In this document: one piece after another, positions 45,142 to 54,308 of the stretch
Layout of the letters: each line of letters begins with the position of its first letter
Numbering within the stretch: the stretch's first letter is position 1
Assembly: GCA_028698995.1 (NCBI GenBank)
Contig: JAQVVM010000002.1
Span: 1 to 64,000 of the forward strand
Reading direction: 5' to 3'
Length of the DNA stretch: 64,000 nucleotides
Source: Bacteroidales bacterium
Lineage (GTDB): Bacteria; Bacteroidota; Bacteroidia; Bacteroidales; PXBB01
The notes under the pieces: generated by a model
What the model saw: only the letters and a program-made list of their open reading frames with translations
Told to the model about the DNA's origin: nothing
Databases searched by the model: none
Made by a program: the position numbers and the translations under genes

Positions 45142-46338
45142 ATGTCAAAAAGAACCATTGTAGCCATGCCAGGAGACGGCATAGGCAAAGCAGTTTTAGA
45201 AGAATGTATCAGGGTGCTTGATGCAGCAGGTTTTAAAGCCAATTATGTACAAGGTGATATTGGTTGGGAGTTTTGGTGCAAAGAAGGCAATCCACTACCC
45301 GACAGAACACTTAAACTTTTGGAAGAGCACAAAATTGGTTTGTTTGGAGCTATAACTTCAAAGCCAAAGGACAAAGCTGCTGCTGAACTTGTACCGGAAC
45401 TACAAGGTAAAGGTATTCAATATTACAGCCCTATTGTTGGCATGCGTCAGTTTTTCGATCTTGATATATGTATGCGTCCTTGCAGAACATTTAAAGGGAA
45501 TCCCCTTAATTTTGTACGCCGTGGTAAAGACAATAAGATTGAAGAACCCGAAGTGGATGTAATGATTTTTCGTCAGAATACTGAAGGCCTGTACGGAGGT
45601 GTTGAATGGACTAATCCTTCTGATAAAGTTTATGATGCATTAATGTCTCACCCCAAATTTGTTGATAACTTTTCATGGTGTCCACGTCCAGAGCTTGCAG
45701 TATCTACTCGTATTTTTACTAAAAAATACGTGACACGCATTGTTCGCGCTGCTTTCGAATATGCTAAAAAGAGAGGATTCGAAAAAATTACTGTTTGTGA
45801 AAAACCTAATGTTATTAGAGAAACTTCAGGCATGATGTTGAAAGTTGCTCAGGAAATGAGTAAAGCTGAATATCCTAACATTTGGGTTGAAGATGTAAAC
45901 ATTGATGCCATGATGATGTGGCTTACTAAAAACCCTGAAAACTATAACGTTATTGTTGCAGGCAACATGTTTGGTGATATTGTTTCTGACGCTTTTGCAG
46001 GTCTTATTGGTGGACTTGGCTTTGCTACATCAGCACAGTTTAATCCTGAAAATGGTATTGCTGTATTTGAACCAACTCATGGATCTGCACCCAAATATGC
46101 AAACTATGATGTTTCAATAGTAAATCCAATTGCAATGATTTTATCAGCAGTTATGATGCTCGAACATATTGGTGAAAATGAAATTGCAGAAAGAATACGT
46201 AAAGCTACTGCCGAAGTTGTTGCTGAAGGAAAGGTTCGTGCTTACGATATGATGAAACTCAAAGGTAGTCCGGAAGTTATCAATAACGGTGCAGCAAGTA
46301 CAAAACAAATGGCAGATGCTATTATAGCAAAATTATAA
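45142..46338 (+). CDS. Isocitrate/isopropylmalate dehydrogenase-family enzyme (probable isocitrate dehydrogenase)
   Basis: 398 residues, a beta-decarboxylating dehydrogenase. Visible are the N-terminal MPGDGIGK, the substrate-loop region VGMRQFFDLDICMRPCRTFKG, FRQNTEGLYGG, the catalytic Lys/Asp block with VEDVNIDAMMMW, the metal-binding GNMFGDIVSDAFAGL, and EPTHGSAPKYA. In E. coli isocitrate dehydrogenase the Lys-Tyr of APKYA contacts the NADP phosphate, so NADP use is suggested here. Because two aconitase-family enzymes follow, oxidative decarboxylation of isocitrate to 2-oxoglutarate is the likely reaction; homoisocitrate is an alternative. A terminator follows, then an HD-like gene. Confidence 0.85.
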   Translation: MSKRTIVAMPGDGIGKAVLEECIRVLDAAGFKANYVQGDIGWEFWCKEGNPLPDRTLKLLEEHKIGLFGAITSKPKDKAAAELVPELQGKGIQYYSPIVGMRQFFDLDICMRPCRTFKGNPLNFVRRGKDNKIEEPEVDVMIFRQNTEGLYGGVEWTNPSDKVYDALMSHPKFVDNFSWCPRPELAVSTRIFTKKYVTRIVRAAFEYAKKRGFEKITVCEKPNVIRETSGMMLKVAQEMSKAEYPNIWVEDVNIDAMMMWLTKNPENYNVIVAGNMFGDIVSDAFAGLIGGLGFATSAQFNPENGIAVFEPTHGSAPKYANYDVSIVNPIAMILSAVMMLEHIGENEIAERIRKATAEVVAEGKVRAYDMMKLKGSPEVINNGAASTKQMADAIIAKL

Positions 46339-46357
46339 TTTTTTTAATAATTCATTA

Positions 46358-46401
46358 AATCCGAAGGGAAGGTCTGAATGGCTAATAACTTCGGATTTTT
46401 T
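46358..46401 (+). terminator. Rho-independent terminator after the dehydrogenase gene
   Basis: Arms AATCCGAAG (46358-46366) and CTTCGGATT (46389-46397), perfect over 9 bp with a 22-nt loop, followed by a T run. It may partly separate the dehydrogenase from the HD/aconitase genes. Confidence 0.7.
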
Positions 46402-46430
46402 TTAAATATTAATCTTAAAAAACAAAAATT

Positions 46431-47006
46431 ATGTCGCATATTGAGATAAAAGAAGAATTCATATTAAAAGCCCGCGCCCTGTGGCCGGAGCTCGAATGGA
46501 TTAAAAACGCTGAATTGCGTGAACAAACAACCAATACATGGGCACTGGCACTTCAAAAAAGTGTTCTCACGCCGAATGATCTTAACACCATTCCATTTAC
46601 ACTTCTATGTGGACCCGATCTTAAAGTGACTTTTATGGACCATAAACGTGCTGTGGTTCATATTGCTAAAGATTGTGGCGAACAAATGAACAAGTTTTTC
46701 AAGAATGACCTGCCGGTTAATATGGATGTACTTTTAGCCGGTGCTATTCTCGCTGATGTTGGCAAATTATTAGAATATGAAATGAAAGAAGGAAAATCTG
46801 TTCAGGGTTCTTATGGCAAGTATTTACGTCATCCTTTTTCAGGTGTTTCTTTAGCTGAAATGTGCCATGTTCCTCCGGCAGTTTGTCATATTATTGCCAC
46901 TCATGCAGGGGAAGGAGATATGGTTAAACGCTCAACTGAAGCTTTCGTTGTGCATCATGCAGACTTTATGACATTTGAACCATTTAAAGACAGATTAAAA
47001 GTATAA
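46431..47006 (+). CDS. HD-domain-like protein with degenerate HD motif
   Basis: 191 residues. The fold pattern is that of HD phosphohydrolases: H71 in FMDHKRAVVHIA, then LLAGAILADVGKLLEYE, then RHPFSGVSLAE (H134), IIATHAGEGD (H158) and VVHHADF (H175, D178). The signature His-Asp of the family (LLHDIGK) reads Ala-Asp here (A108-D109), so one canonical metal ligand is missing while the others are kept. It may bind one metal differently or be non-catalytic. It is located between isocitrate-dehydrogenase-like and aconitase-like genes (66 bp before the latter), suggesting a linked role, possibly regulatory. Substrate unknown. Confidence 0.72.
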   Translation: MSHIEIKEEFILKARALWPELEWIKNAELREQTTNTWALALQKSVLTPNDLNTIPFTLLCGPDLKVTFMDHKRAVVHIAKDCGEQMNKFFKNDLPVNMDVLLAGAILADVGKLLEYEMKEGKSVQGSYGKYLRHPFSGVSLAEMCHVPPAVCHIIATHAGEGDMVKRSTEAFVVHHADFMTFEPFKDRLKV

Positions 47007-47072
47007 GTATTTATTTGACTGAGCTCCTCTCAGACTAATCCTTACTTAAATTATAACTAAAATAAAAATGAT

Positions 47073-48878
47073 ATGAATTTAATTGAAAAAATTTTAGCAT
47101 CTCATACAAACAGAGATGCTGTAAGTGCCGGTGAAATTGTAGATATCCTTATTGATGCACGTGTAGCACGTGACTTCGGAGGTGCCAATGTGGTAAAAAA
47201 TATTGTAAACAACGGACTTACTGTGAACGATCCTAAACGCACTTTTTTTACTTTTGACTGCAATCCTACAGGCTCAGACCAGAAATATGCTGCCAATCAG
47301 CAATATTGCCGTTTGTTTGCACGTGAAAATGGAATTAAAATATATGATATTGATGCCGGTATAGGAACACATCTTGCTATTGATGAAGGTATCGCTTGGC
47401 CGGGGAGCACATTTGTTTCAACTGATTCTCATGCGAATATTCTAGGAGCTATTTGTGCTTTTGGACAAGGCATGGGTGATCAGGATATTGCTGCTGCATG
47501 GGCAAAAGGTTCTTTATGGTTCAAAGTACCTCCTTCAATAAAATTAAATTTCAAAGGAGAACTGCCAAAAAATATATCAGCTAAAGATTTTACGCTTAAT
47601 ATGCTCAATATTTTCGGTGCCAATAAGCTTTTAGGTTATTCTGTTGAATTTTATGGTGATTGTATTGATAAACTGACCTTAGATGAACGAATTACCATAG
47701 CTTCTATGGCTACAGAAATGGGTGCAATTATATTTTTATTTCCACCGAATAAACCAATTAATGATTATTGTGAGGAAAAATCAGGGCGCAAAATTGAATT
47801 GCTTCAAGCTGATGATAATGCACATTATGAAGATATCAAAGAAATTGATGTTACCAAATTTGTTCCCATGCTTTCCTTACCCGGAAAACCTCATGACAAT
47901 GCCAGTGTTGAAAAAGAATTTGGTAAAAAGATAGATTCAGCATTTATTGGAAGTTGCACCAACGGTAGGATTGAAGACTTACGTGTTGCAGCTTCTGTTC
48001 TTAAAGGAAGAAAGGTAGCTCCAGGAGTTGTTTTAAAAATTGTTCCATCTACCGATAGTATCTGGAAACAAGCAATGGACGAAGGTCTCATAAATATTTT
48101 TAAAGATGCCGGTGCAATGGTTTCCAATGCAGGTTGTGCAGGTTGCGCAGCAGGGCAGGTAGGACAAAACGGGCCTAAGGAAGTAACTTTAAGCACAGGT
48201 AATAGAAATTTTGAAGGAAAACAAGGCAGCGGTTTTGTGTATTTAGCAGCACCTGCAATAGTTGCTGCATCAGCCGTGGCAGGGTACATTACAACCCCTG
48301 ATAATATTCCCAATATTCCTAAAAAATTTGAAAAAAGTGAAGTTTCTTCATTTAAGGCCGGTGTTAAAAAGGAAGTTAAAAAAGATAAACCACTGATTGT
48401 AGAGGGTAGGGTATGGGTTATTCTTAAAGATAATATTGATACGGACATGATTTTCCACAACCGCTATCTCACGATCACTGATATCAATGAGATGGGACAA
48501 TACGCATTTGATAATCTTAAAGGTTATGAAGATTTTGCTAAAAAAGCCAAACCAAACGATATTATAATAACGAGCAAAAACTTTGGTGCTGGAAGCTCCC
48601 GTCAGCAAGCTGTTGATTGTTTTATTTCATTGGGTGTCTCTTGTATTATTGCTGAGTCCTATGGCGCAATATACGAACGAAATGCCATTAATGCTGCTTT
48701 CCCAATACTTTCTTACAAAAGTGGGCTACTCGAAGAAATTGAAATTAAAGATGGAGATTTGATTAGGGTTGATATGGCTGAAGGCATCATTACAAATTTA
48801 AAGAACAATAAAACCGGAAAAATAAACAAGTTTACTGAAGTTCAAATAGAAATTTATAAAAATGGTGGACTTCTTTAA
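47073..48878 (+). CDS. Fused aconitase/isopropylmalate dehydratase-family enzyme (first of two)
   Basis: 601 residues, a LeuC-type large subunit (1 to about 420) fused to a LeuD-type swivel domain (about 440-601). The [4Fe-4S] ligands are Cys of GSCTNGR (about 294) and the two Cys of AGCAGCAAGQ (about 350). STDSHANILGA carries the substrate-binding Ser/His. In the swivel domain NIDTDMIFHNRYLTITD occupies the substrate-selecting loop (YLRT in archaeal homoaconitases, YLVY in isopropylmalate isomerase) and FGAGSSRQQA is the conserved active-site Ser-Arg loop. It should interconvert a hydroxy-tricarboxylate such as citrate or isocitrate. It shares a probable operon with a second, divergent copy 116 bp downstream. 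Confidence 0.87.
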   Translation: MNLIEKILASHTNRDAVSAGEIVDILIDARVARDFGGANVVKNIVNNGLTVNDPKRTFFTFDCNPTGSDQKYAANQQYCRLFARENGIKIYDIDAGIGTHLAIDEGIAWPGSTFVSTDSHANILGAICAFGQGMGDQDIAAAWAKGSLWFKVPPSIKLNFKGELPKNISAKDFTLNMLNIFGANKLLGYSVEFYGDCIDKLTLDERITIASMATEMGAIIFLFPPNKPINDYCEEKSGRKIELLQADDNAHYEDIKEIDVTKFVPMLSLPGKPHDNASVEKEFGKKIDSAFIGSCTNGRIEDLRVAASVLKGRKVAPGVVLKIVPSTDSIWKQAMDEGLINIFKDAGAMVSNAGCAGCAAGQVGQNGPKEVTLSTGNRNFEGKQGSGFVYLAAPAIVAASAVAGYITTPDNIPNIPKKFEKSEVSSFKAGVKKEVKKDKPLIVEGRVWVILKDNIDTDMIFHNRYLTITDINEMGQYAFDNLKGYEDFAKKAKPNDIIITSKNFGAGSSRQQAVDCFISLGVSCIIAESYGAIYERNAINAAFPILSYKSGLLEEIEIKDGDLIRVDMAEGIITNLKNNKTGKINKFTEVQIEIYKNGGLL

Positions 48879-48994
48879 TATCAGGTATTTTAAGGTTAAA
48901 TGTAGAAGGTGATAATAATCAAAAATAAATTAATTCATTAACCATTAATAAGAAGTAAAGTAATAAAATTTAAATTCATAAAAAAATAATAAAC

Positions 48995-50770
48995 ATGGGT
49001 AAAACATTTGCAGAGAAAATATTTGGAGCACCAACCGGTGCCATTGTTTTCAAAAAACCTGATATCGTTCTCACACACGATAATACGGAGAGCATCCGTA
49101 AAACATTTCAAAAAATGGGTGGGGAGAAAGTATTTTCAGTTGAGCAGCTGCTCATAACACTTGATCATAATGCTCCGCCAACAGATGCCAAGCTGGCTAA
49201 TGACTATTTTTCAATTCGTAATTTTGCACGCGAACAGGGCATTACAAAATTTCATGATGCAGGTGATGGCATTTGCCACCAGATAATGTCTGAATATGCA
49301 CGTCCGGGTATGCTCATTGTTGGCAGTGATAGTCACACTTGTACAGCAGGAGCTTTCAATGCTATGGCAGCAGGAATTGATAGAACTGAATCAGCAGGCT
49401 TGTGGAAAAAAGGTGAAACCTGGTTCCGTGTACCCGAATCCCTAAAAATTACACTCAATGGCAGGCTTAATAAAGGGGTATATGCTAAAGACCTTAGTTT
49501 GTGGATAATTGGGAAAATAGGAACAGATGGTGCCAATTATATGTCTATTGAATTTCATGGTGAAGGCGTTAAAACATTGAGCATTTCTGAACGTATGACA
49601 CTTACCAATCTGGCTTCAGAAATGGGTGCTAAAAATGCAGTTTTCCCCTCAGATGAAGTTCTGTCTAAACATCTGGGCACAGCTATTACCAATGGTGTTT
49701 GGGCTGATGAGGATGCTGTTTATGAAAAAGAAATGCTGATAAATTTGAATGAGGTATTTCCTGTTGTTGCAGCACCTCATAGTCCTGAAAATGTGAAAGC
49801 AATTTCAGAAGTTCAGGGCACCAAGTTAAATCAAGGTGTCATTGGTACCTGTACAAACGGTCGTTTAGATGATATCAGAATTGCTGCTGAGATACTTGAG
49901 GGTAAGCAAATTGCAAAAGATTTCCAATTGCTTGTAATACCTGCTTCAAAGCACATCTATATGCAAGCCATAGAAATGGGATATATTTCCTCCCTTATGA
50001 AAGCAGGAGCTACCATTTTAGCCTCTTCATGCGGTCCTTGTCTGGGTACTGGACAAGGTATTCCTGCAGATGGCTTTACTGTTATTTCTACTGCTAACAG
50101 AAATTTTAAAGGACGTATGGGAAATAAAAACGCTTCGATTTATCTGGCAAGTCCTGCTACTGTTGCATATTCTGCAATTTATGCCGAAATAACGGATCCA
50201 CGTGGTATTAAAGCCGGAGAAGTTTTTAAAACTGAAGTTCAGGTTGCTGCAAGTGTTTCTGTCCCCAAAGGTGAAAACAGAAAAGATAAAGGTGTCTGGA
50301 ACTATTCAGATGCCGATAATCTGAATACAGATCAGATGTTCGCTGGAAATCTTACCTATTCTGTTTTAAGTTCTGACCCTGTAGCCATTATGCCCCATTT
50401 GTTTAAAGGCTTTGATGAGATTTTTGCAGAAAATGTAAAAGAAGGTGATATTATTATTGCCGGTGATAATTTTGGTTGTGGCAGTTCTCGTGAACATCCT
50501 GCTGTTGGCCTTGCCCATGCAGGTGTGAAAGCTGTTATCTGCAAATCCGTAAACAGAATATTTTATCGTTCATCCGTTAATCAAGGTTTGCCCATTTTGG
50601 TTGTTCCTGATGCTGTAAACAATTTCAAACAAGGCGATAAAACTCATGTGGATTTTTCCAAAGGGGAAATTATTATTAACGAGAAAATCTTCAAATTCGA
50701 ACCTTTGCCAGAGCAATTGGTTGCTGTATTTGAAGCTAAAGGCTTGGTGAATTATCTGAAAAATAATTAA
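48995..50770 (+). CDS. Fused aconitase/isopropylmalate dehydratase-family enzyme (second of two)
   Basis: 591 residues with the same LeuC-LeuD fusion but a clearly different sequence from the neighbour. Large-subunit motifs: LDHNAPPTD, VGSDSHTCTAGA, GTCTNGRLDD (cluster Cys) and ASSCGPCLGTGQG with the canonical CGPC pair. The swivel domain has NTDQMFAGNLTYSV at the specificity loop and FGCGSSREHPAVGL at the active site. This is nearer to the classical IPMI/homoaconitase pattern than the first copy. With the dehydrogenase it could carry citrate to 2-oxoglutarate; why two fused dehydratases are kept is not clear from sequence. No LeuA/LeuB or homocitrate synthase is in the window. Confidence 0.87.
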   Translation: MGKTFAEKIFGAPTGAIVFKKPDIVLTHDNTESIRKTFQKMGGEKVFSVEQLLITLDHNAPPTDAKLANDYFSIRNFAREQGITKFHDAGDGICHQIMSEYARPGMLIVGSDSHTCTAGAFNAMAAGIDRTESAGLWKKGETWFRVPESLKITLNGRLNKGVYAKDLSLWIIGKIGTDGANYMSIEFHGEGVKTLSISERMTLTNLASEMGAKNAVFPSDEVLSKHLGTAITNGVWADEDAVYEKEMLINLNEVFPVVAAPHSPENVKAISEVQGTKLNQGVIGTCTNGRLDDIRIAAEILEGKQIAKDFQLLVIPASKHIYMQAIEMGYISSLMKAGATILASSCGPCLGTGQGIPADGFTVISTANRNFKGRMGNKNASIYLASPATVAYSAIYAEITDPRGIKAGEVFKTEVQVAASVSVPKGENRKDKGVWNYSDADNLNTDQMFAGNLTYSVLSSDPVAIMPHLFKGFDEIFAENVKEGDIIIAGDNFGCGSSREHPAVGLAHAGVKAVICKSVNRIFYRSSVNQGLPILVVPDAVNNFKQGDKTHVDFSKGEIIINEKIFKFEPLPEQLVAVFEAKGLVNYLKNN

Positions 50771-50915: not shown

Positions 50916-52052
50916 ATGACTGACTTGAATTATATTCTACAATTTATACAGGGAAAGAAAACACCTTTTTACCTGTATGATGTTGAAAAAATTCGCTCTA
51001 ACTGTAGTGCATTTAAGGCAATCCCATATCCAAACTTGTCTTTACATTACGCCAGCATGGCAAATTCTTCAAAGTATTTTTTGAAAATTATTTTAAAAGA
51101 GGGGCTGGGCATTTTTGTCAATTCACTGGAACATTTAAATATGGCAATCGAAACGGGTTTCAAAAAGGAATCTATTGTGTTTACAGCTTCATCTTTAGAA
51201 AAGGAAACCATGATTGAAGCACAGAAAAAGGCTATGTTTATACACCTTGATTCACTCAATCAACTTCAACTATGGACATCTCTTTTTCCAAATCAAAGAA
51301 TTGGGTTAAGGGTTAATTTAGTTGATGCATTTAATGAAGAAGCCGGTATTAAATCAGGTTTATTTATAGGTTCTAAAAGCCGTTTAGGAATTGATACCGA
51401 ATCATTAAAATTCATTGAGAACCCTGATATGATAAATGGTCTGCATATTTATGTAGGCACCAATATTTTAGATCAGGATTACTTTTTTGAATATTACGCT
51501 AAACTTATTGAAACTGCAGAACTTTTCAAAAATTTAGAGTATGTTGATTTTGGAGGAGGTTTTGGGATTGATAGCTCAATGAGTCAGGTTTTTGATACTG
51601 AAAATTTCAATAAAAGACTTTCTGAATTGGTTCACAATTTTACTCTTCACCGTGGCCGGAACATTAAGCTTATTCTTGAACCGGGAAGAATTATTGCCGG
51701 TGATGCAGGTTATTTTGTTTGCAAGGTTATTGATATTAAATATCGGAACGACAAACAGTTTATTGTCTCAAATGCCTCAGTTTCTCAGTTTCCCCGTCCA
51801 TTATTTTACTGTAATGAAGCTATACATCCGGTTTTTTTAGTTTCTGAACAATTAATTATTAAAGAACAATCAATTCAAAAATCAGCTATTGTTGGATGTT
51901 CTACATATTCAAGAGATTATCTTGCTGATGATGTGTTTTTACCAAATGCGCAGATAGGGGATTTTGTTGTTTTTACACAGGCCGGGGCTTACTGTGCTTC
52001 TTTATTTACAAAGTTTCTTGGATTTCATGAACCTGATGAATATTACATTTGA
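50916..52052 (+). CDS. Fold-III PLP-decarboxylase homologue lacking the PLP lysine
   Basis: 378 residues with the full barrel plus C-terminal layout of diaminopimelate/ornithine-type decarboxylases. GGG (213-215, DFGGGFGID), EPGR (255-258) and the C-terminal AGAY (356-359) are conserved. However the YAxKAN motif reads YASMAN, so the Schiff-base Lys is Met48. The ring-stacking His of HxGS reads Tyr179 (HIYVGTN), and the catalytic Cys of the CxSxD block aligns with Thr330 (CSTYSRD). The protein is probably a pseudoenzyme or works by different chemistry. Its TGA stop overlaps the TTG start of the GNAT-like gene, so translation is likely coupled. Candidate role: partner in a small modification pathway with the GNAT and radical SAM proteins. 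Confidence 0.8.
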   Translation: MTDLNYILQFIQGKKTPFYLYDVEKIRSNCSAFKAIPYPNLSLHYASMANSSKYFLKIILKEGLGIFVNSLEHLNMAIETGFKKESIVFTASSLEKETMIEAQKKAMFIHLDSLNQLQLWTSLFPNQRIGLRVNLVDAFNEEAGIKSGLFIGSKSRLGIDTESLKFIENPDMINGLHIYVGTNILDQDYFFEYYAKLIETAELFKNLEYVDFGGGFGIDSSMSQVFDTENFNKRLSELVHNFTLHRGRNIKLILEPGRIIAGDAGYFVCKVIDIKYRNDKQFIVSNASVSQFPRPLFYCNEAIHPVFLVSEQLIIKEQSIQKSAIVGCSTYSRDYLADDVFLPNAQIGDFVVFTQAGAYCASLFTKFLGFHEPDEYYI

Positions 52053-53155
52053 AAATAATACGTGCAGATACTGAAGAGCTTAAAAAAGCATTCGTTGCTT
52101 TAGATAATGTCATCTATAAAGACAATATCTTTTATCGTAAAACGGACAATGATGTGCTTGACATACTTCTTGCAGAAAACAGCTGTTTTAAGTTACATGC
52201 CACCATAATTCCCTGCCTTGCAATTGATGATGACACTGTTTTCGCCAGGTTCATACTAATTCTTGATTCTCATTTCAAAAACTACATTCAAATCGCTTTT
52301 TTTGAAGCATTACCCAATTTGATCAATATTGCATCGCTCATCGAAAAAACTGCTAAAAACTTTTTCCCTGAAACTCAACAGCTAATTATTGGTTTAAATG
52401 GTCATCTGAATTATGGTGCGGGAATTTTATTAAACCAGTTTAATAGGGTTCCTTTGTTTGGATTGAACTACAATCCTGAATATTATAAAAATTATTTCAA
52501 AGACTATAAATTGACAAAATTGTACTCGTATCGTTTTGAATCAAATGCCGACTATAAACATTCAGAAAGTTTTAAAGAACGACTTCTGTCGAAAAACATA
52601 AGTGTCAGGAAATTCAGAAAGGGAAATTTTAGAAAAGAGATTGAAATATATACATATCTGAACAACTTATGCTTTGAAAAGCACCTGTTTTGGACAAAAC
52701 GCACATCAGATGAAGATTACGAATTGTTTAAGTCTTTCAGGTTTTTAATTCGGGAGGAAAATTTTTTAATTGCTGAATGTGAAGGACTACCCATTGGATT
52801 TATTCTTTGGTTTCCTGATTTTAATGAGATGATTCATTCAAATCGCATGATGAAAGCTGATTCTTATTTACATTTTGATGTGCTTAGATATAGAATCTTC
52901 AATCCCATAAAAACATTCAGGTTAGCAGAAATAGGAGTTGTTCCTGAATTTCAAAGAAAAGGAATAGATTTCTTATTACTTAACGAGATGATGAAATACG
53001 TCAGAAAAAGGAATTATACGTTTGGCGAGGGAGGTTTTATTCTTGAAAATAATTCTGAAAGCAATTTGATGGCTCAAAGGTATATTGAGAGATTAACCCG
53101 TCAACAAACATTACCTTTCAGAGAATATGGTTTATTTATTAAGGAAATTAATTAA
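52049..53155 (+). CDS. GNAT-like acetyltransferase-fold protein
   Basis: 368 residues starting at TTG (52049), which overlaps the previous gene's stop by 3 nt; no ATG is nearby. The C-terminal half has a GNAT core: LIAECEGLPIGFILWF (beta-4 region) and AEIGVVPEFQRKGIDFLLLNEM, the acyl-CoA-binding QxxG loop. The N-terminal half resembles the N-terminal part of double-GNAT proteins, with PLFGLNYNPEYYKNYF. The acceptor is unknown. It sits between a PLP-less decarboxylase homologue and a radical SAM protein with no gaps, implying a common pathway. It could also be an aminoacyl-transferase-like protein of the same superfamily. Confidence 0.72.
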   Translation: MKIIRADTEELKKAFVALDNVIYKDNIFYRKTDNDVLDILLAENSCFKLHATIIPCLAIDDDTVFARFILILDSHFKNYIQIAFFEALPNLINIASLIEKTAKNFFPETQQLIIGLNGHLNYGAGILLNQFNRVPLFGLNYNPEYYKNYFKDYKLTKLYSYRFESNADYKHSESFKERLLSKNISVRKFRKGNFRKEIEIYTYLNNLCFEKHLFWTKRTSDEDYELFKSFRFLIREENFLIAECEGLPIGFILWFPDFNEMIHSNRMMKADSYLHFDVLRYRIFNPIKTFRLAEIGVVPEFQRKGIDFLLLNEMMKYVRKRNYTFGEGGFILENNSESNLMAQRYIERLTRQQTLPFREYGLFIKEIN

Positions 53156-53156
53156 A

Positions 53157-54308
53157 ATGGCTGACAACATCTATATAAGTGGGTTTTCAAAATTTCTGAT
53201 TGATGTAAGAATCATATTTTTACTTTTTAAAAAGTCGGTGAGCTATTTTGGTTTTATTAAGGGCATTAATTTCTTGATCAGCTATTTGCAAAATAAACAA
53301 TCCGCCTTAAAAGATACGCCCAATCGTTATATAAAAAATGGAAACAATATTTTAGCAGTTCCTGATTTGCCTCCTGTAAATACATCTCTATTTAATGATT
53401 ATCTGTTCAGGGATATGAAAATCCTGCTAGGTAAAGATAAAGCCATACCGTTATTTGTTATTTTCTGTATTACTTCAAAATGCCCGCATAGATGTTCTTA
53501 TTGTTATAATTCAGACATGCATGAAAAGTTTGAAAAAATTCCTTTGGATGTTATTTTAAAAACAATAAATGATTTAGTAAATAGCGGCATATCAAATATT
53601 TACCTTTCAGGGGGTGAACCCATGATGAGATGGGATGATGTTTTAAAGATTTTGGATACATACGGAAACAAATCGGTGCGCTTTTGGCTTCTTACAACCG
53701 GAGCCCTGACTTCAGTTGAAAAATTAAAATTACTGAAGAAAAAAGGATTGTCGGGCATTATGGTATCACTTGATTCTTATAATTCTGAATATGTAAATAA
53801 AATCAAAGGTAATACCCATGCATTCAATGATGCTCAAAGCGCCATCAAAGCTGCTGCAGGTATAGGTATGCCTGTAGCTGTTAACACTGTTTTCTCGAAA
53901 GAAATGCTTGATAAGAAAGAATTTGATAAGTTTGTTTCCTTTGCCGGAGAAATTGGGGTTTCATTTATTAATTGTTACACTCCAAAGTGCACTCAGGAAA
54001 CATTTTCAGTATTTGATTTTGACGACTATCAAAAATTAGCAGATTTAACAAAAGAAAATCAAAAGAAATGCTTAAGATTACCATTAACATATTCCCCTGA
54101 TGCATGGGAGTCGAAAAGGGGCTGCGTTGGAGGTAAATTGTTTTTGTATATTGACCCCGAAGGAAATATAAAGCCTTGTCCATTTGCCTCCCATATTTTT
54201 GGTAATATTCGTGAAAATAGTGTTAAAGACATTCTGTCAAAATCACAGGATGCAGAATATTTTCAGATGTGCGGCAGTATGGCACTTATTCAGAATAAAA
54301 TCACTTAA
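53157..54308 (+). CDS. Radical SAM/SPASM-like protein
   Basis: 383 residues from the ATG at 53157, chosen because it follows the upstream stop by 1 nt; an ATG at 53127 would overlap that gene by 29 nt. The radical SAM cluster motif is C109-C113-C116 (CPHRCSYC), with GGEP (YLSGGEPMMRW), a VSLDSYNSE strand and a C-terminal SPASM-like segment (GCVGGKLFLYIDPEGNIKPCPF, split here by reading) with Cys for an auxiliary cluster. Such proteins modify peptides or small metabolites. It is third in the overlapping cassette; no precursor peptide gene was seen within about 150 bp either side. Confidence 0.82.
   Translation: MADNIYISGFSKFLIDVRIIFLLFKKSVSYFGFIKGINFLISYLQNKQSALKDTPNRYIKNGNNILAVPDLPPVNTSLFNDYLFRDMKILLGKDKAIPLFVIFCITSKCPHRCSYCYNSDMHEKFEKIPLDVILKTINDLVNSGISNIYLSGGEPMMRWDDVLKILDTYGNKSVRFWLLTTGALTSVEKLKLLKKKGLSGIMVSLDSYNSEYVNKIKGNTHAFNDAQSAIKAAAGIGMPVAVNTVFSKEMLDKKEFDKFVSFAGEIGVSFINCYTPKCTQETFSVFDFDDYQKLADLTKENQKKCLRLPLTYSPDAWESKRGCVGGKLFLYIDPEGNIKPCPFASHIFGNIRENSVKDILSKSQDAEYFQMCGSMALIQNKIT

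Follow-up and report, generated by a model that had tools for sequence, protein, structure and literature searches.

A lysine-less homologue of the fold-III decarboxylases encoded with GNAT-like and radical SAM proteins in a Bacteroidales bacterium

The window analysed here, a stretch of 64,000 nucleotides from a Bacteroidales bacterium (assembly GCA_028698995.1, contig JAQVVM010000002.1), carries three closely packed genes on the forward strand. The first (50916..52052) encodes P0001, a protein of 378 amino acids which Pfam, the NCBIfam model TIGR01048, its active-site residue columns and an AlphaFold2 model all identify as a homologue of the pyridoxal 5'-phosphate (PLP) decarboxylases of fold type III; it lacks the active-site lysine. 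This lysine is the defining residue of PLP enzymes. The second gene (52049..53155) begins with TTG and encodes P0002, a tandem GNAT-like protein of 368 amino acids (Pfam, AlphaFold2 and Foldseek), and the third (53157..54308) begins with ATG and encodes P0003, a radical S-adenosylmethionine (SAM)/SPASM-type protein recognised by Pfam, by its cysteines and by alignment with homologues. As an initial annotation of this DNA had described, the stop codon of the first gene overlaps the start codon of the second in the four nucleotides TTGA (52049..52052, forward strand), and by the open reading frames (ORFs) only 1 nucleotide separates the second from the third. The longest frame for P0003 opens at 53127; the start of its homologues (at loci L104, L113, L115, L105 and L068) aligns with the shorter form beginning at Met53157. 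Scans of the window for Rfam families and tRNAs gave no matches.

P0001 belongs to the superfamily of fold-III PLP decarboxylases (Orn/DAP/Arg decarboxylase 2). It passes the Pfam models PF02784 (E 2e-22; 80.2 bits against a cut-off of 23.4) and PF00278 (E 2.6e-14; 53.7 bits against 23), and its AlphaFold2 model, with a predicted local distance difference test (pLDDT) score of 93.5, shows a TIM barrel and a beta domain. Foldseek places this model closest to the diaminopimelate decarboxylase LysA (1ko0; E 3.5e-29, TM score 0.88), and a VIA comparison with another LysA structure, 1tuf, gave a Z score of 43.2 and 2.2 Å across 364 residues. The LysA model TIGR01048 is likewise the best NCBIfam match (E 3.2e-57), with TIGR03099 second, although the 193.9 bits obtained lie far below the LysA cut-off of 297.9. 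With a score under this threshold and the set of Lys, His, Cys and Glu missing, P0001 is best placed outside LysA proper.

The motifs GGG (213-215), EPGR (255-258) and AGAY (356-359) are all present in P0001. In the alignment with LysA and ornithine decarboxylase (ODC), Met48 takes the place of the Schiff-base Lys, Tyr179 that of the PLP-stacking His and Thr330 that of the catalytic Cys, as had been proposed from the sequence of this one copy, and two further changes in the pocket can be added, namely Phe67 at the position of Asp88 in Trypanosoma brucei ODC and Tyr331 at the Glu/Asp that follows the Cys. The residue columns were compared by aligning 50 Lys-less with 62 Lys-bearing proteins. 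The Schiff-base position is Lys in all 62 of the latter, and in the Lys-less members it is Met in 49 and Val in one. Among these same 50 proteins, Phe stands at the Asp88 position in 44, Tyr at the stacking His197 in every one, Thr at Cys360 in 49 and Tyr at the adjoining Glu361 in 45, and an arginine, Arg333, is newly gained in 46. The stacking-His position is also Tyr or Phe in the Lys-bearing relatives L163, L164 and L165 (TIGR03099-like, Rahnella), so Tyr179 was discarded as proof of lost catalysis. Because the Lys and the acid/base groups are lost, P0001 is, by these columns, probably not a decarboxylase of the LysA/ODC mechanism.

The residues that would hold the phosphate and the ring nitrogen of the cofactor show the opposite behaviour. 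Arg132, Glu255, Gly257, Arg258 and Tyr359 of P0001 (equivalents of Arg154, Glu274, Gly276, Arg277 and Tyr389) are identical in all 50 Lys-less members, Thr182 (equivalent to Ser200) is Thr or Ser in all of them, and the GGG loop is retained with a single exception, which has Ser at the middle position. Of the ten PLP-contact positions that were mapped, six are invariant in a 47-row alignment, which has 22 invariant columns in all (hypergeometric p 3.5e-6); the contacts are those listed for T. brucei ODC (PMC3543441), and their mapping onto P0001 was made in the present analysis. Such a pattern suggests that the groups acting on the substrate have been lost and that those holding the phosphate and ring nitrogen remain under selection. 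The term "PLP-less" in the initial annotation consequently claims too much: because the phosphate and pyridine pocket is almost invariably kept, only "Lys-less" is established. Binding of a B6 vitamer without an internal aldimine would be compatible with this pocket, and is even favoured by it.

Outside the window, 56 loci spread over about 12 phyla encode Lys-less relatives with 28-48% identity to P0001. The phyla are Bacteroidota, Krumholzibacteriota, Bacillota, Cloacimonadota, Calditrichota, Spirochaetota, Myxococcota, Nitrospirota, Pseudomonadota, Actinomycetota, Acidobacteriota and, among plasmids, Cyanobacteriota. A scan of GTDB genomes, seeded with the patterns ATMAN and HxYxGT that contain the Met and the Tyr, gave 50 loci, and every member examined has Met for the Lys, save one with Val; a tblastn search of plasmids added rhizobial and cyanobacterial relatives. 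Within the Bacteroidales, relatives of P0002 above 200 bits occur in five of 393 genomes including that of the window, and in each of the other four the same cluster also encodes the barrel (42-45% identity). A single branch separates the Lys-less rows from all others, with Shimodaira-Hasegawa-like approximate likelihood ratio (SH-aLRT) support of 98 in a tree of 86 rows and 99 in a tree of 73 rows that includes MccE and TIGR03099; on both trees a single loss of the lysine would be enough. The best tree does not place the clade with the TIGR03099 rows, although an approximately unbiased (AU) test does not reject its grouping with the TIGR03099-like L163-L165 (p 0.38). The close homologues are all Lys-less, so that the copy in the window is not alone in its changes, and the earlier suggestion of a reused barrel holds for the whole family, with the Met/Tyr/Thr signature conserved across about 50 homologues.

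Which genes accompany the barrel was counted at 57 loci, window included, several of which end at a contig edge. A GNAT homologue is found at 37 of them and a second GNAT/FemAB-like gene at 32; 44 carry a radical SAM gene of some kind, and 40 carry one of the B12-binding type. The homologues are thus not scattered without partners. In one layout (type A), closely spaced genes encode the barrel, a GNAT, a GNAT/FemAB-like protein and then two or three B12-binding radical SAM proteins; these last have a weak likeness to HpnR and PhpK, far under the cut-offs of those models. The order of the window (type B: barrel, GNAT, radical SAM/SPASM) recurs exactly at three other Bacteroidota loci, L104, L113 and L115, and only at these four does a P0003-type radical SAM gene adjoin the barrel; that they form one clade is not rejected (AU p 0.35). 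The type-A operon of L105 has a P0003-like gene close by on the opposite strand. Rhizobia and their relatives combine a radical SAM/SPASM gene, a B12 radical SAM gene and the barrel (type C), subsets of them with PqqD-like, BtrH_N, TldD-like or DUF3050 genes, and the Bradyrhizobium cluster L121 is one that holds a BtrH_N domain. In Actinomycetota, Bradyrhizobium and Pseudomonas syringae the barrel stands with spermidine-synthase-like, methyltransferase or EamA exporter genes (type D), and in Gloeothece with asparagine-synthetase-like genes (type E).

Of the co-occurrence of all three genes that the initial annotation had put forward as a sign of a new system, the recurrence of GNAT-like and radical SAM partners across phyla stands, but the exact trio is a minority form: most relatives have B12-binding radical SAM proteins and a second GNAT/FemAB-like gene instead, and some have other partners altogether. 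Since the substitutions are kept in about 50 divergent homologues and the gene order in L104, L113 and L115, arrangement and substitutions go beyond chance. The barrel seems, from these neighbourhoods, to be a module paired with varying partners, mostly acyl-transfer-like and radical enzymes. Neither the surroundings of the window cassette nor the inspected type-A operons revealed a carrier gene, and no precursor peptide was identified beside the cassette, where no dedicated search for short peptides was made. The window genome was also considered as a type-A system split over separate loci, and this was rejected, as its best match to the 440-amino-acid B12 radical SAM protein is 31% identical and no ortholog.

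P0003 matches the Pfam families Radical_SAM (E 1.7e-24) and SPASM (E 4.8e-07); in the numbering of the longest ORF, from 53127, its CxxxCxxC motif comprises Cys119, Cys123 and Cys126, and the auxiliary cysteines Cys333, Cys351 and Cys382 are fewer than in a full SPASM motif. P0002 is only marginally above the cut-off of Pfam PF00583 (22.1 against 20.7 bits), and its AlphaFold2 model (pLDDT 90.7) is a tandem GNAT. Its Foldseek neighbours are glucosamine N-acetyltransferase of Clostridium acetobutylicum, the clavulanate tandem GNAT, mycothiol synthase MshD and FemX, at query-scaled TM scores of about 0.6 or lower, and aminoacyl-tRNA-dependent synthases are among the matches too. At the site of the glycine motif for acyl-CoA (Q/RxxGxG/A) P0002 reads QRKGID and most of its relatives QRSPVA. 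The proposed pathway with acyl transfer and radical chemistry is upheld in one part, the recurrence of GNAT and radical SAM partners, whereas acyl transfer is putative, the glycine motif being missing in the type-A GNATs.

How could a decarboxylase barrel without its lysine serve such enzymes? We speculate, and give this reading about an even chance of being correct, that P0001 is a non-covalent binder of a B6 vitamer or of a phosphate-bearing substrate in radical SAM pathways. The clade would have given up the internal aldimine between Lys and PLP together with the acid/base groups of decarboxylation, and would have retained the site for the phosphate and ring nitrogen of the cofactor. A phosphate-bearing aromatic ligand could then be held non-covalently, sandwiched by Met48 and Tyr179; most simply it would be a B6 vitamer, either pyridoxamine 5'-phosphate (PMP) or PLP already joined to an amino acid of the pathway, and otherwise a phosphate-bearing substrate. 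We infer a small-molecule pathway shared by the three proteins: the tandem GNAT would transfer an acyl or aminoacyl group, and the same intermediate would be altered by the radical SAM enzyme. By analogy, neither the loss of the lysine nor the binding of PMP appears foreign to the fold-III barrel. The Protein Data Bank (PDB) title of 2tod describes K69A ODC complexed with difluoromethylornithine (DFMO), so that the pocket need not be empty without the Lys, and the PDB also holds a PMP complex of a fold-III decarboxylase, 9cpz.

Several points weigh against this proposal. Ligand binding by P0001 is predicted from sequence, and with Met in place of the Lys no obvious base remains for chemistry at C4'. 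The pocket could be kept for folding, for dimerisation or for some other phosphate ligand. The seeds of the GTDB scan favour Met and Tyr, so these two residues were to some extent selected by the search; neither the STYSRD loop nor the pocket residues lie within the seeds, and L129 and the plasmid hits were obtained without the two patterns. The use of acyl-CoA by P0002-type GNATs cannot be assumed, because most relatives of P0002 read QRSPVA and the type-A GNATs are without the usual glycine motif, and the partner genes vary among lineages, so that no single pathway follows. A broader claim can be formulated, which we regard as tentative and less likely than not: a new fold-III class would use a B6 vitamer (e.g. 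PMP, or substrate-bound PLP) without an active-site lysine and would work jointly with a tandem GNAT and radical SAM enzymes in an undescribed and horizontally spread class of natural-product or lipid pathways in about a dozen phyla.

Ranked next after non-covalent binding of a B6-like ligand, and clearly less probable than it, is the idea that the barrel acts as an enzyme or binding module for aminoacyl substrates attached to a carrier, a tRNA or a peptide, with PLP-free chemistry and with descent from carrier-associated decarboxylases like BtrK or TIGR03099. The rank of TIGR03099 as second-best model speaks for such a descent, as does the Tyr or Phe that TIGR03099-like and Rahnella proteins share at the His position, and the AU test leaves their grouping with the clade standing. 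A TIGR03099 member of Sinorhizobium meliloti adjoins a phosphopantetheine-binding protein, the BtrH_N domain of L121 fits the same idea, and proteins similar to the GNAT partners include FemX and aminoacyl-tRNA-dependent synthases. Yet the best tree keeps the clade apart from the TIGR03099 rows, the cassette and the inspected type-A operons yielded no carrier gene, and the kept pocket around Glu255 and Arg258 is better explained by a B6-like ligand. Somewhat less probable again is that P0001 has become a pseudoenzyme and regulates a partner enzyme or serves as its scaffold, much as antizyme inhibitor acts on ODC. Lys and Cys are indeed lost, the operon couples the barrel tightly to the GNAT, and regulatory inactive relatives of ODC are known in eukaryotes (PMC6313458); the pattern of decay, however, is opposite to that of antizyme inhibitor (PMC3543441), no Lys-bearing member of the family is encoded alongside as a partner, and P. 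syringae has the barrel as a fusion with a spermidine-synthase-like domain.

Two simpler explanations would keep P0001 within ordinary decarboxylase chemistry or its decay. It is very unlikely that a different lysine now forms the Schiff base with PLP, which would leave P0001 an ordinary decarboxylase whose Lys has merely shifted: Lys275 is invariant in the Lys-less family and invites the thought, but LysA 2yxx has a Lys at the same place in the alignment, which makes Lys275 no replacement, and the active-site Asp, His, Cys and Glu are changed as well. That P0001 is a single mutated or decaying copy of LysA is refuted by the conserved family and hardly deserves any credence, even though LysA is its best NCBIfam model and no protein of the window genome passes the LysA cut-off. 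The reading frame is intact, about 50 homologues in one clade carry the same changes, and a Lys-bearing relative of 455 amino acids in the same genome outscores P0001 on the LysA model with 212.9 bits.

Comparison with characterised systems suggests that the fold is familiar and the Lys-less clade with its partners is not. P0001 shares with LysA (TIGR01048; 1ko0, 1tuf, 2yxx) the fold, the domain order and, by sequence, the phosphate and pyridine pocket, and differs in having Met, Phe, Tyr, Thr and Tyr for the equivalents of Lys, Asp88, His197, Cys360 and Glu361. MccE of microcin C7 likewise pairs a GNAT with a barrel of fold type III within a natural-product operon, but as one fused protein beside mccB and mccD, whereas the tandem GNAT is here a separate gene. 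The annotated region examined for MccE contains no radical SAM gene, and Lys (YSYKSN), His and Cys are all retained in the MccE of plasmid MccC7-H22. An MccE-like identity was rejected on account of the retained Lys. The exosortase-A-associated decarboxylase TIGR03099 and BtrK resemble P0001 in fold and in an association with carrier chemistry, and the TIGR03099 rows are aromatic at the stacking-His position; those examined nevertheless keep Lys and Cys. Antizyme inhibitor likewise has the ODC fold and has lost catalysis, but it is a monomeric regulator of eukaryotes which retains Lys and Cys and loses the PLP-binding residues (PMC3543441), the reverse of what is seen in P0001. The partner genes of the relatives share B12-binding and radical SAM domains with HpnR, PhpK and other families of that kind, and all score far under the curated cut-offs, so that no such function is assignable to them. 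In the open-access literature we found no description of a bacterial Lys-less fold-III family or of such clusters, an earlier description being possible; the clade with its partners thus appears to be undescribed, and the Lys-less barrel probably marks an undescribed kind of biosynthetic pathway.

A conserved clade that lacks the lysine and keeps the rest of the cofactor site allows one to ask whether B6 is used without an internal aldimine or another ligand is bound. Some Lys-less members at least (L074, L075 and L076) bear the deposited name of alanine racemase, diaminopimelate decarboxylase (LysA) or decarboxylase, a misnaming by automatic annotation that would lead pathway predictions astray. 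The recurring neighbours also flag several uncharacterised radical SAM clusters, some of them in Ruminiclostridium hungatei DSM 14427, Mesorhizobium and Sinorhizobium.

Elsewhere in the window genome, the top scorer on the LysA model is the 455-amino-acid relative L158 (G000:C2:6663-7889), the best LysA candidate; proteins like it, also of about 455 amino acids, occur in many Bacteroidales genomes. No close paralogue of P0003 was found in this genome. Directly upstream of the cassette, 45142-50770 of the window holds an isocitrate/homoisocitrate-family dehydrogenase, a short gene that matches no NCBIfam model and, in tandem, two proteins in which LeuC-type and LeuD-type domains of the aconitase family are fused, with scores under most equivalog cut-offs. 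These dehydrogenase and aconitase-family genes were rejected as members of the cassette, none being seen near L104, L113 or L115.

Several neighbourhoods of the relatives have features of their own. In P. syringae pv. cilantro (L120:9962-12055) the barrel and the spermidine-synthase-like domain make up one protein of 697 amino acids; the genes after it encode a methyltransferase, another spermidine-synthase-like protein and an EamA exporter, and transposase-like ORFs lie at the flanks. At L065 and L068 a P0002-like GNAT stands beside a P0003-like radical SAM gene without a barrel, near a metallophosphoesterase-like ORF, and the respective genomes (G171 and G263) also hold a separate type-A cluster. 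The GNAT gene is duplicated in tandem at L097, L099 and L109 (Cloacimonadota and a related contig), and in two Bacteroidales genomes a repeat-rich, apparently secreted protein of about 222 amino acids lies between barrel and GNAT (L064:7983-8651 and L067:5769-6440). A putatively viral contig from a viral collection (L078, IMGVR_UViG_3300005836_000235) carries a rhizobial-type cluster of QueA-like, PqqD-like and two radical SAM genes with a Lys-less barrel. Near the barrel of L076, L097 and L104, which represent three phyla, there are asparagine-synthetase-like genes that fall into one homology cluster.

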